Assembly (NCBI GenBank): GCA_963978895.1
Contig: OZ022240.1
Location: 12,427,307 to 12,491,306, forward strand
Direction: 5' to 3'
Origin: Erpobdella octoculata
Taxonomy: Eukaryota; Annelida; Clitellata; Hirudinida; Erpobdellidae
Length of the DNA: 64,000 bases
The position numbers and the translations under genes were made by a program. Positions 10,702 through 46,133 of this stretch are shown piece by piece. Each line of letters opens with the position of its first letter. The stretch's first letter is position 1. Under the pieces are notes generated by a model that did no database searches, was not told the DNA's origin, and saw only the letters and a list, made by a program, of their open reading frames with translations.

Positions 10702-10745
10702 AGACCGACGGACCGTTTCAGCTATGTCAGCCATCCTCAGGGTCA
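10702..10745 (-). ncRNA. hammerhead ribozyme, Penelope type (left palindrome arm)
   Basis: Core CTGAGGA, extra T, stem II GGCT/AGCT closed by a G-T pair, GAAA, helix III CGGTCCG, cleavage triplet GTC, helix I GACC/GGTC. All core residues are intact. Confidence 0.85.
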
Positions 10746-11084
10746 AAAGTAAAACGAGAAAAGTAAACAAACAGAAAGAACCGAAATTGTCAAAGAATTA
10801 GCACACTAACAAAAGAAAAAACGAAAAAACACTCTACCTATCAAATCAAAAGAATATAAAATTTATACTATTGGAAATCAATTTTTGCGTTTTCGCTGTG
10901 TTATATTAGAAGAGTCTCTTCTAATATAACACAGCGAAAACGCAAAAATTGATTTCCAATAGTATAAATTTTATATTCTTTTGATTTGATAGGTAGAGTG
11001 TTTTTTCGTTTTTTCTTTTGTTAGTGTGCTAATTCTTTGACAATTTCGGTTCTTTCTGTTTGTTTACTTTTCTCGTTTTACTTT

Positions 11085-11128
11085 TGACCCTGAGGATGGC
11101 TGACATAGCTGAAACGGTCCGTCGGTCT
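11085..11128 (+). ncRNA. hammerhead ribozyme, Penelope type (right palindrome arm)
   Basis: Exact inverse copy of the ribozyme at 10,702-10,745. The ATG at 11,096-11,098 overlaps the last core base and opens the head frame MADIAETVRRSDNK. Confidence 0.88.
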
Positions 11129-11311
11129 GACAATAAAAGTTTAATGGAAAAGTTTTTGGCTAATTGTAGTCTCGAACAGAGAGTTTTGTGCCGAAAGGTC
11201 GAGAATTTGGCTCGAAAAGTTGTTTCTGCCAAATGGCGAGTTGTGTTTCTTAGAGCGTGTCTCAAAGATAAATTGATTCCACAGTTTATTCGCAATATAT
11301 ATATATATATA
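11096..11311 (+). pseudogene. Penelope ORF N-terminal head (MADIAET family)
   Basis: About 65 codons from the ribozyme-embedded ATG. The conserved part is [20 protein letters not shown] followed by [12 protein letters not shown]; the same block in other families reads KK.xNAKWxxxFNxxCLxExLxPxY. This matches the N-terminal region found upstream of RT in Penelope-like proteins. The RT itself is gone: TA repeats and then a Helitron-like element follow at once. Confidence 0.75.
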
Positions 11312-12950
11312 CTAGCAGTGCCCGTAGCGGCTTCGCTCGCATGAAATTAGAAAGTTTGAACCGTGCATCCATAGTAGAGATCATTTTTTTAGGTCTCGGC
11401 TCGGCCCGTCGACAAATTAGCCCAGCCCGTTTTAAAAACCCAAACTCCTGGCCCGGCACAGCCCGTCTGAATTAGGCCCGGCCCATTTTTACAGGCCTAG
11501 AAGTTCTATATACTTGATGAAAAACTTCGGCCCGTCCCACCTTGACCTCAGGTTTGGCCCGGCCAAACTGAAGACCCTAAAATCACTAAAATATCTATAT
11601 ACTTGGTGAAAAGCCTCGGCCCGTCCCACTTTGATTTAAGGTTTGGCCTGGCCCGTGTGAAGACTCTAAAATAACGGCTTGGCCCGGCCGATGATAAACT
11701 GGACTTAGCTACTTTTAACCGGCACAAAACTTCAAAATACTAATTTTTACATTTGTAGCACTTACAGTTTGTGAATAGCAGTTATTTTGAAATCAAATAA
11801 CCCTTACTTCCACCCCACATTTGAGGTCCTGGAAACCAAATTTTCAAAAAATGCTAAAACACGTATTTCATTATTTTTGGAGTAGAAACTAAATACTAAT
11901 TTTTACTTTTGTAGCATTAACAGTTTTTGAGTAGCAGCTACTTTAAAAACCAAATAACCCAAAGAATGATGAAACACGTATATCTTTTTTTTTTTAGTAG
12001 ATACTAAGTATTAAATTTTACATCTGTGGAAATTACAGTTGTTGAGTAGCAGTTACTTTAAAAACCCTATTTTCCACCCCACATTTGAAGTCCTGGAAAC
12101 CAAATTTTCAAAAAATTGTGAAACCCGTATATCATTATTTTTAGAGTAGAAACTAAATTCTAATTTTTACTTTTGTAACATTAACAGTTTTTGAGTAGAA
12201 GCTACTTTAAAAACCAAATAACCCAATTTTCCAACCCACATTTGAGGTCCGGGAAACCAAATTTGTAAAAATTGGTGAAACACGTATATCTTTATTTTTA
12301 GAAAAGAAACTAAATAATAATTTTTACATCTGTGGTATTTACTGTTTTTGAGTAGCAGTTACTATAAAAGACAATTAACCCTATTTTCCACCCCACATTT
12401 GAAGTCCTGGAAACCAAATTTTCAAAAAATGCTAGAACACGTATTTCATTATTTTTGGAGTAGAAATTAAATATTAATTTTTACTCCTGTAGCATTAACA
12501 GTTTTTGAGTAGAAGCTACTTTAAAAAGCAAATAACCCAATTTTCCAACCCACATTTGAGGTCCGGGAAACCAAATTTTTAAAAAATGGTGAAACACGTA
12601 TCTTTTTATTTTTCAAAAAGAATCTATATACCAAATTCCAAAATCTCCTCATTTTTGGTTTTCGAGATATACATTGTTTTAGAAAAAAGTTTGTTTTCCA
12701 GTTTTTTCCCCTCAGGAGCAAAATTTTCAAAAATCCTTTCTTAGCGGATGTTTACGCCATAAAAGTAATATAAGTTCCAAATTTCACGTTCCTAGGATGA
12801 GGCGTTTGAGCTCGGCGTTGATTATCAGTCAGTCATCTGTCAGTCAGTCAGTCAGTCAGTCAGTCAGTCAGTCGTCAGTCAGTCAGTCAGTCAGTCAGTC
12901 AGTCAGTCAGTCAGTCAGTCAGTCAGTACATGTTCTTTTATATATATAGA
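11312..12950 (-). mobile_element. Helitron-like (HINE-type) element, nearly complete, minus orientation
   Basis: The 3' end CTAG is at 11,312-11,315 with hairpin GCGAGCGAAGCCGC. The 5' end at 12,950 reads TCTATATATATAAAAGAACA on the minus strand, so the element has the TC...CTAG ends of Helitrons. Order from the 5' end: (CAGT)n block (12,830-12,927), a unique segment with CCTAGGAACGTGAAATTTGG, about six 150-bp units, and a GGGCCGGGCC-rich block. It sits in (TA)n next to a Penelope head. No coding. Confidence 0.75.
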
Positions 12951-13085
12951 TATATATATATATATATATATATATATATATATATATATATATATATATA
13001 TATATATATATATATATATATATATATATATATATATATATATATATATATATATATATATATATATATATATATATATATATAT
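12951..13085. repeat. (TA)n tract ending at a minus-strand Penelope head stub
   Basis: On the minus strand the sequence right of this tract reads ...ATTCCACAGTTTATTCGCAA and then TA, which matches the IPQFIRN codons of the MADIAET family. A short head stub therefore lies at about 13,086-13,110. Confidence 0.85.
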
Positions 13086-43654: not shown

Positions 43655-43760
43655 ATATATATATATATATATATATATATATATATATATATATATATAT
43701 ATATATATATATATATATATATATATATATATATATATATATATATATATATATATATAT
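43655..43760. repeat. (TA)n
   Basis: Between the Penelope tail and a Helitron-like 5' end, which it partly merges with. Confidence 0.96.
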
Positions 43761-45362
43761 TAAAGAACATGTCCTGACTGACTGACTGGCTGACTGACTG
43801 ACTGACTGGCTGACTGACTGACTGACTGACTGACTGACTGATTGATAATCAACGCCGAGCTCAAACGCCTCATCCTAGGAACGTGAAATTTGGAACTTAT
43901 ATTACTTTTATAGCGTAAACATCCGCTAAGAAAGGACTTTTGAAAATTTTGCTCCTGAGGGGAAAAAACTGGAAAACAAACTTTTTTCTAAAACAATGTA
44001 TATCTCGAAAACCAAAAATGAGGAGATTATGAAATTTGGTATATAGATTCTTTTTGAAAAATAAAAAGATACGTGTTTCACCATTTTTTGAAAATTCGGT
44101 TTCCCGGACCTCAAATGTGGGTTGGAAAATTGGGTTATTTGGTTTTTAAAGTAGCTTCTACTCAAAAACTGTTACTGGTACAGGAGTAAAAATTAGTATT
44201 TAGTTTCTACTCCAAAAATAATGAAACACGTGTTTTAGCATTTTTTGAAAATTTGGTTTCCAGGACTTCAAATGTGGGGTGGAAAATAGGGCTAATTGTC
44301 TTTTATAGTAACTGCTACTCAAAAACAGTAAATACCACAGATGTAAAAATTATTATTTAGTTTCTGTTCTAAAAATAAAGATATACGTGTTTGACCATTT
44401 TTTACAAATTTGGTTTCCCGGACCTCAAATGTGGGTTGGAAAATTGGGTTATTTGGTTTTTAAAATAGCTTTTACTCAAAAACTGTTTATGTTACAAAAG
44501 TAAAATTAGAATTTAGTTTCTACTCTAAAAATAATGATATACGGGTTTCACAATTTTTTGAAAATTTGGTTTCCAGGATTTCAAATGTGGGGTGGAAATA
44601 GGGTTATTTGGTTTTTAAAGTAACTGCTACTCAACAACTGTAATTGCCACAGATGTAAAAATTAATACTTAGTATCTACTAAAAAAAAAAGATATACGTG
44701 TTTCATCATTTTTTGGGTTATTTGGTTTTTAAAGTAGCTGCTACTCAAAAACTGTTAATGCTACAGAAGTAAAAATTAATATTTAGTTTCTACTTCAAAA
44801 ATAATGAAATACGTGTTTTAGCATTTTTTGAAAATTTGGTTTCCAGGACCTCAAATGTGGGGTGGAAATAAGGGTTATTTGATTTCAAAACAACTGCTAC
44901 TCACAAACTGTAAGTGCTACAAATGTAAAAATTAGTATTTTGAAGTTTTGTGCCGGTTAAAAGTAGCTAAGTCCAGTTTATCATCGGCCGGGCCAAGCCG
45001 TTATTTTAGAGTCTTCACACGGGCCAGGCCAAACCTTAAATCAAAGTGGGACGGGCCGAGGCTTTTCACCAAGTATATAGATATTTTAGTGCTTTTAGGG
45101 TCTTCAGTTTGGCCGGGCCAAACCTGAGGTCAAGGTGGGACGGGCCGAAGTTTTTCATCAAGTATATAGAACTTCTAGGCCTGTAAAAATAGGCTGGGCC
45201 TAATTCAGACGGGCTGTGCCGGGCCAAGAGTTTGGGTTTTAAAATGGGCTGGGCTAATTTGTTGACGGGCCGTGCCGAGACCTAAAAAAATGATCTCTAC
45301 TATGGATGCACGGTTCAAACTCTCTAATTTCATGCGAGCGAAGCCGCTACGGGCACTGCTAG
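43761..45362 (+). mobile_element. Helitron-like (HINE-type) element, plus orientation
   Basis: 5' part TTAAAGAACATGTCCTGACT and a (GACT)n block, then about six 150-bp units, a GGGCCGGGCC-rich block, hairpin GCGAGCGAAGCCGC and CTAG at 45,359-45,362. It is the mirror of 11,312-12,950 with high similarity throughout. It is bounded by (TA)n on both sides. Confidence 0.75.
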
Positions 45363-45471
45363 TATATATATATACATATATATATATATATATATATATA
45401 TATATATATATATATATATATATATATATATATATATATATATATATATATATATATATATATATATATAT
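45363..45471. repeat. (TA)n
   Basis: Separates the Helitron-like end from a Penelope tail. Confidence 0.96.
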
Positions 45472-46090
45472 TTGTGGTGTAGTGATCCTGTCGATGATAA
45501 CTTAGTTATCGGCCCCTCGTCCATGTCGACATCTGCTATGGACCATGTCATGGACCCTGAAAGTGGCGGCGGTGAGAGCGGTGACGGCTCTCGACCCGAA
45601 AGCGTTAGCTAGCGGGTCCGTGACAACTCGTCATCTACGTGCGATCGGGTTTCGGTAGATGCGACATTGTGTGACGACCGTGCTGTTTCAGCTGTGCCTG
45701 ATGAGATTGTTTCGATAAATGAAGCAGTTAATGATCATAATGTTCTTTTGGCAAGAATGGCGGCGACGATAACGTTTTGTGTAAAATAACGTGGCATTTT
45801 AATTATTTAATTTAATTTTGGCAATTCTTCAGAGATTGTTTCCGTTTTAACAATGTCATGGTTGCGCGAGATGTGACGTAGATCTGTCGTTTCACAATTA
45901 ATAGATTTTGCTTTTCAACGTTATTTTAAATGTATAACAGTTTTATTATATAATTTATTTTTTAATATCTCCCTACAGTTAAATAAATTAAAATGTCATT
46001 CTCGAAAAATAACTATTTTTATTTTGTTTCATTATAGGTTTTAACTTATTTTACTTTTCATTATTCTATCCATGTTTTGTTTTTCTTTTC

Positions 46091-46133
46091 GGGCTCTGAT
46101 GATGACAAACTTACCGTCGAAACGCGTTAGCCC
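46091..46133 (+). ncRNA. hammerhead ribozyme, Penelope type
   Basis: Helix I GGGCT/AGCCC, CTGATGA, extra T, stem II GAC/GTC, GAAA, very short palindromic helix III (ACGCGT), cleavage triplet GTT. The decayed sister at 31,561 has lost the GAAA. Confidence 0.85.

Follow-up and report, generated by a model that had tools for sequence, protein, structure and literature searches.

An extra U spells AUG in the core of Penelope-linked hammerhead motifs from Erpobdella octoculata

Here we describe hammerhead ribozyme motifs in a 64,000-nt stretch of Erpobdella octoculata DNA (contig OZ022240.1, positions 12,427,307 to 12,491,306; hereafter the window), where they adjoin the conserved head of Penelope elements and carry one extra U that spells AUG in the catalytic core. 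The closest described system is PAc, the Poseidon element of Anolis carolinensis. The open reading frame (ORF) of PAc begins at stem II, the ribozyme cuts 26 bp into the ORF, and core residues C3 and G8 are located 5' of the start codon (PMC11167929). Cutting was observed only with added protein, and the element requires the first 172 nt of the ORF and has an optional tail of 30–40 bp (PMC11167929). The window resembles PAc in that the AUG lies at the start of stem II with a cut downstream (~26 nt in PAc, 26–32 nt by prediction in all 15 copies described below), in insertions that end inside the head, in an optional tail, and in AT-rich targets. By position, the overlap is of the PAc type, and its frame is open to the head in four of eight families, known here from heads alone. 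PAc differs in being one element, conserved across several Anolis species, and its description does not, in the section consulted, discuss the extra U, families limited to an upstream frame, or a translation switch. The overlap of core and AUG, whose earlier description the original prediction left as a question, is thus already in print for PAc, and the window extends a known arrangement. Beyond PAc, no such overlap was found in the literature searched, a search that did not cover the 2014 and 2017 papers on Penelope hammerheads.

Those papers, by Cervera and de la Pena (2014) and Lunse et al. (2017), reportedly describe type I Penelope hammerheads with a very short helix III, located in pseudo-long terminal repeats (pseudo-LTRs), and the title of the latter is said to state dimer cleavage. 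The window copies share the type I form, the short helix III, and the pseudo-LTR setting with these minimal dimer-type hammerheads. One extra core nucleotide also occurs in the hammerhead of the viroid CChMVd, an A between A9 and 10.1; this RNA differs in being non-coding and devoid of a start codon. In the haloviruses HF1 and HF2, the HHphage hammerhead adjoins a start codon but lies 13 nt upstream of it, with no overlap (PMC3088659). The role of ribozymes in Penelope elements was described as unknown in a 2020 review (PMC7761336).

We read the window motifs, with a probability of roughly 0.6, as minimal dimer-type type I hammerheads at Penelope 3' ends (pseudo-LTRs), in which a fixed U makes an AUG whose use depends on the family and whose transcript would serve either as mRNA or be cut.

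Hammerhead motifs and their extra U

A search of the whole window for CTGANGA followed by 0–2 bases and G yielded 28 matches at 24 sites, versus 5.6 expected. These sites comprise 14 ribozymes, two remnants, and eight sites without a surrounding ribozyme. The 14 ribozymes contain CTGANGA-T-G together with stem II and GAAA (3516+, 10740-, 11090+, 23484+, 23954-, 25219+, 30206+, 30542+, 34439+, 35031-, 35730+, 39762+, 40230-, and 46096+). A descriptor consisting of the core, three helices, and GAA, with 0, 1, or 2 inserted bases of any kind allowed, identified 13 motifs with zero core mismatches, and the inserted base was T in 13/13. Allowing one mismatch added no further motifs; with two mismatches, there were 24 matches, the extras being 25616 and ten noise-like ones, two of which had an inserted A. 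The copy at 3516 falls outside the strict descriptor owing to one helix III mismatch, and that at 25616+, taken from the list of the original prediction, reads CTGAACA-T-G, with C in place of G8. Their addition brings the set to 15 copies in nine sequence families, F1 to F9, all with one U between A9 and G10.1, just as had been predicted for every readable copy. A9, the inserted T, and G10.1 are invariant in the alignment of the 15 copies, and because the U falls between A9 and G10.1, the three bases spell AUG. The AUG is thereby confirmed, and all nine families share it. The cores and related features are as follows:

10731..10740, minus strand: F1 core CTGAGGATGG; AUG opens MADIAET..., in frame with the head; on the left arm of a palindrome
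11090..11099, plus strand: F1 core CTGAGGATGG; ribozyme AUG and a further AUG at +49, both in frame with the head
11096..11294, plus strand: head frame of F1 in its longer form with a tail, running from the ribozyme AUG up to where the TA repeat starts
25616..25625, plus strand: F2 degenerate core CTGAACATGG, G8 replaced by C; AUG in frame (MAEKIAET...) to a stop after IIDI
30542..30551, plus strand: F3 core CTGATGATGG; AUG opens MANKAET...; one-base phase change just 5' of the KW motif
35022..35031, minus strand: F4 core CTGAAGATGG; AUG in frame (MVKLTET...)
35730..35739, plus strand: F4 core CTGAAGATGG; AUG opens MVKLTET... in frame; inverted relative to its partner at 35.0 kb
40221..40230, minus strand: F5 core CTGAAGATGG; AUG in frame (MEKDFRN...); GAAA encodes Arg-Asn
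3516..3525, plus strand: F6 core CTGATGATGG; AUG opens a 12-codon frame, MAKNCRNRSTSL; head start at AUG +44
23484..23493, plus strand: F6 core CTGATGATGG; 12-codon upstream frame; 3' of the Penelope ORF end at 23304
34439..34448, plus strand: F6 core CTGAAGATGG; AUG opens MAKFAEIVL (9 codons); frame of the head shifted here
25219..25227, plus strand: F7 core CTGAAGATG(A); 11-codon frame MTISSKLASRQ; head start at AUG +49
23946..23954, minus strand: F7 core; inverted partner of 25219
30206..30214, plus strand: F7 core; surrounding stretch identical to that of 25219
39762..39770, plus strand: F8 core CTGAAGATG(A); 18-codon frame MTVVETGQSVLIIIICII; head start at AUG +67
46096..46104, plus strand: F9 core CTGATGATG(A); AUG opens a frame of 22 codons, not followed by a head
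31843..31853, minus strand: F6-like remnant CTGAAGATGGC; carries the T; remainder of the ribozyme lost
31566..31574, plus strand: F9-like remnant CTGATGATG; carries the T; GAAA part deleted
22348..23304, plus strand: C-terminal part of a Penelope ORF, 180 nt 5' of an F6 ribozyme

The 13 perfect-core motifs have the CUGANGA and GAAA core and the helices I, II, and III of a type I hammerhead, and H17, the residue before the predicted self-cleavage, is A, C, or T in all 15 copies. The canonical adjacency of A9 and G10.1 is absent in 15/15, the U intervening. Since known hammerhead alignments tolerate at most one or two nt inserted between CUGAnGA and its stems (PMC10085705), we regard the U-bearing core as a variant hammerhead, not as grounds for exclusion. 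The claim that every core reads CUGANGA stands except at 25.6 kb, where G8 is missing, and we rejected this copy as an active ribozyme. Rfam reported no hammerhead in the window at gathering score or at E up to 10. The eight pattern sites at 933, 9993, 12869, 18344, 45698, 55812, 61525, and 62726, some without T, were discarded, with no ribozyme around them.

The nine families are mutually related and located at 10.7/11.1 kb (F1), 25.6 (F2), 30.5 (F3), 35.0/35.7 (F4), 40.2 (F5), 3.5/23.5/34.4 (F6), 23.9/25.2/30.2 (F7), 39.8 (F8), and 46.1 kb (F9). Their copies are not independent because a palindrome, inverted repeats, and an identical stretch link them. The F1 pair (10740/11090) sits one copy per arm in a perfect palindrome of 358 nt (10557-11273), whose arms are separated by a single base, the F7 copies 23954 and 25219 lie within a 285-nt inverted repeat of 99% identity, the third F7 copy (30206) sits in a 281-nt stretch identical to the surroundings of 25219, and the heads of the F4 pair fall within a 135-nt inverted repeat of 96% identity. 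The honest sample size is therefore nine related families, eight of them with a head (F9 has none). The palindrome at 10557-11273 holds two Penelope ends head-to-head.

The predicted cut lies 3' of the AUG, as given above, and the head AUG of F6, F7, and F8 is found 14–41 nt past it. Helix III is a perfect palindrome in 11/15 copies, and co-folding of two copies predicts, for representatives of F2 to F8, that they share helix III and preserve stem II; F9 is also predicted to pair at helix III but with an altered stem II, and F1 folds otherwise. The palindromes and the predicted co-fold thus describe a minimal helix III through which two copies could pair, as in dimer-type hammerheads. Single-strand models of ~240 nt predict a paired G in the AUG of every one of the nine family representatives (probability at least 0.87), with variable pairing of its A and U.

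Reading frames from the ribozyme AUG

The ribozyme AUG is in phase with the conserved Penelope head, and its frame is open through to the KW motif, in four of the eight families with a head (F1, F2, F4, and F5). The original prediction had counted a fifth, at 30.5 kb (F3), where the frame stays open only until a one-base slip just before KKWA that leaves the AUG out of phase; another in-frame AUG lies at +118, inside the head. The peptides given in that prediction were correct, including the Glu-Thr encoded by GAAA in four families. No alternative AUG would preserve the whole head in F2, F3, F4, and F5, and F1 has a second in-frame AUG at +49, near the start position of full-length relatives. 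In F7 and F8, the AUG is in phase with the head but stops intervene, and the head has its own AUG at +49 (F7) or +67 (F8). Two F6 copies have the ribozyme AUG out of phase and a head AUG at +44; the third copy is shifted. In these families, as had been foreseen, the ribozyme AUG opens a short upstream frame of 9–18 codons (22 codons in F9). An in-frame AUG is thus not universal, unlike the U insertion, and we rejected the ribozyme AUG as a universal ORF start; the heads of F6, F7, and F8 have their own later AUG. Judged from the frames, the ribozyme AUG is likely the ORF start in four or five families and the start of an upstream frame in three.

Shuffling the linkers, with a phase factor of 1/3 and families treated as independent, gave P ~2e-5 for at least four of eight families open to the head. 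The AUG is in phase 0 in 6/8 family representatives (P 0.02). G10.1, which had been placed at +4, is in fact the G of the AUG at +3; position +4 falls on the stem II base that follows, a G in F1–F6 and an A in F7–F9. A +4 G is present in 5/5 in-frame families (30.5 kb counted as in frame) versus 1/4 of the others (including F9, which has no head), with a Fisher P of 0.048 for a grouping chosen after seeing the data. The +4 pattern and the phase bias weakly argue for use of the AUG as a start.

A decay artefact, in which chance AUGs meet chance open frames in dead copies, would suit the truncated copies, the frameshift at 30.5 kb, and the broken core at 25.6 kb, yet it is very improbable given 13 descriptor matches in the window versus 1 in total over 100 dinucleotide-shuffled windows, the open-frame P value above, and the same arrangement in Anolis PAc. 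A second possibility is that the head frame is coded from an earlier, spliced, or non-AUG start and the ribozyme AUG is an internal Met. The frame 5' of the AUG is indeed stop-free for at least 21 codons in F1, F2, F4, and F5, and an intron has been reported within a Penelope ORF (PMC3846280). We consider this explanation improbable, as the upstream stop-free stretch has no AUG in any of these four families, and the PAc ORF was placed from the position of the ribozyme AUG (PMC11167929).

More serious, at a little under even odds, is the explanation that the U is kept for the ribozyme (its fold, rate control, or protein binding), with the AUG a by-product recruited for in-frame use secondarily in some lineages. 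F6, F7, and F8 retain the U while their heads start at a later AUG. The start codon is therefore not a necessary reason to keep the U, and its persistence in families with another main start points to a role in the ribozyme. F9 likewise keeps the U without an AUG seen starting a head. Ahead of their conserved start, two database relatives (P0017 and P0024) encode a stretch that resembles a hammerhead with an inserted C or U; its AUG would be out of the ORF frame. There is also a viroid precedent for an extra core nucleotide, the deletion of which raised cleavage and lost infectivity (PMC11014351). The phase bias and the +4 G pattern, both weak, suggest instead some selection as a start.

Element ends, relatives, and a possible mRNA-or-cut switch

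The F6 copy at 23.5 kb displays the order of parts: a Penelope ORF C-terminus with its stop at 23304, a spacer of 180 nt, the ribozyme at 23484, the head, and a TA repeat. The C-terminal query, to which a piece of a second copy was joined, found 14 matching proteins (best E 1.6e-58), 8/14 of which bear RVT_1 (PF00078) and one PF01541, which we take to be GIY-YIG. Pfam gave no match for 22348-23301, and no Penelope reverse transcriptase (RT) part was identified within the window. Thirteen of the 15 copies run into TA repeats, beginning +150 to +173 after the AUG (eight copies) or +191 to +200 (five copies); F2 and F9 have no TA repeat within ~370 nt after the AUG. Two 3'-end classes, 23–27 nt apart, are found within F1, F4, and F7. 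Together with the palindrome and inverted repeats, these end classes provide the inverted head-to-head copies and optional 3' tail typical of Penelope-like elements. The loci look like 3' ends of insertions, copying the start of the next unit's ORF.

Two copies of a likely Penelope C-terminus (24406-25023, minus strand, and 29189-29752, plus strand) lie ~450 nt 5' of F7 ribozymes and resemble by eye the ends of proteins P0005 and P0009. A further Penelope C-terminal ORF (32035-33267, minus strand) has 211 asparagines in ~410 residues, with a longest run of 99, and may be likened to the N-rich inserts reported in Adineta Penelope ORFs.

Two protein searches collected 131 distinct proteins (the second contributing from 120 listed of 702 matches), whose starts are gene-caller choices and were judged from the protein sequence. 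A head is recognisable within the first 130 residues in 94/131, and 61 of the 94 display M-x-[YFIL]-[GAVDIE]-x-[LIV] as a conserved start ~31 codons before KW. All 131 proteins were scanned by back-translation for ribozyme-encoding stretches. P0032 (MAKVCRN...) is an in-frame AUG candidate that is not significant alone, as 11 of the other 1677 Met positions pass too, and its peptide merely resembles the F6 peptide MAKNCRN. The core scan with an insertion found four places: P0017 and P0024, discussed above, and P0014 and P0115, inside body sequence and judged chance. The sole place without an insertion, near the C-terminus of P0044, was also judged chance; P0122, similar by eye, did not pass the scan. 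P0119 and P0129 have additional sequence ahead of the conserved start, with no visible ribozyme in it. These relatives suggest that both arrangements, an AUG that starts the head and one that does not, probably exist beyond the window, and the in-frame one looks like a minority in the sampled relatives. A head-only protein search gave five candidates, none with E up to 10, and so yielded no unbiased sample of window-like heads. A pattern search for Penelope proteins returned 41 matches in viral contigs and 35 in genome contigs, with no relatives among them, and a DNA pattern had at least 120 matching candidate stretches in viral contigs.

Returning to family-dependent use of the AUG with an mRNA-or-cut switch, several points weigh against it. 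F6, F7, and F8 keep the U though their AUG is not the main start of the head. The P values given above are too small, the families sharing ancestry. The head ends no more than 45 residues from the Met in 82/94 relatives, too short for a start at a ribozyme AUG, so that most relatives appear, on their gene-caller starts, to begin downstream. No complete Penelope ORF was found in the window; the heads lie terminally in truncated copies, and no start is therefore seen joined to its RT. The spacing of the end classes (23–27 nt) is slightly below the tails in print, 30–40 bp (PMC11167929) and 31 bp (PMC3846280). In PAc, ribozyme mutants left insertion in vitro unchanged, and RNA sequencing revealed no ends at the cut site (PMC11167929).

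Under this preferred reading, a ribosome initiating translation could not use the bases of a ribozyme that is folded, dimerised, and bound by protein. A transcript would accordingly be either uncut mRNA or cut, and the AUG would be available for initiation only on uncut RNA with the ribozyme unfolded. In a first layout (25.6, 30.5, 35.0/35.7, and 40.2 kb), the ribozyme AUG would be the only start keeping the whole head, and cutting would behead the mRNA. In a second (3.5/23.5/34.4, 23.9/25.2/30.2, and 39.8 kb), the AUG would open the upstream frame of 9–18 codons and the head would use a second AUG; cutting would strip the upstream frame and leave the main AUG. In the 10.7/11.1 kb family, the ribozyme AUG is in frame, but both AUGs are present. 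The earlier suggestion that self-cleavage removes or exposes the start codon fits both layouts by position.

A switch from mRNA to template may be hypothesized from position here and protein-dependent cutting in PAc. We think it unlikely, though conceivable, that this switch is autoregulatory: element protein bound to the head would trigger the cut 26–32 nt past the AUG, beheading the mRNA once protein suffices, with the U as the price of a start codon in the core, and the second class would have moved its start past the cut, turning the core AUG into the opening of a cut-removable upstream frame. Should the catalytic core and the start codon indeed be the same bases, translation and cleavage would be mutually exclusive on one RNA, a testable function, and the two layouts, with the start lost or kept on cutting, would predict opposite effects of ribozyme-dead mutants on protein output.

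Other features of the window

A Twister-P1 ribozyme match at 4626-4687 on the plus strand scores 56.6 bits (E 4.6e-10) and thus falls short of the gathering score, 67.2. An intact-looking ORF on the minus strand (52876-55947, 1022 aa from the first ATG) contains endonuclease/exonuclease and RT domains and belongs to an element of the long interspersed nuclear element (LINE) type. Two overlapping ORFs occupy 41128-43204 on the plus strand, the second of which resembles an integrase of long terminal repeat (LTR) elements by eye, and an ORF with a TNP-like GTP-binding insertion domain (27848-28546, minus strand) is probably a DNA-transposon fragment. A candidate host gene is represented by a myosin tail coding sequence at 62110-63117 on the plus strand, with a similar-looking ORF just 5' of it at 61622-62146.

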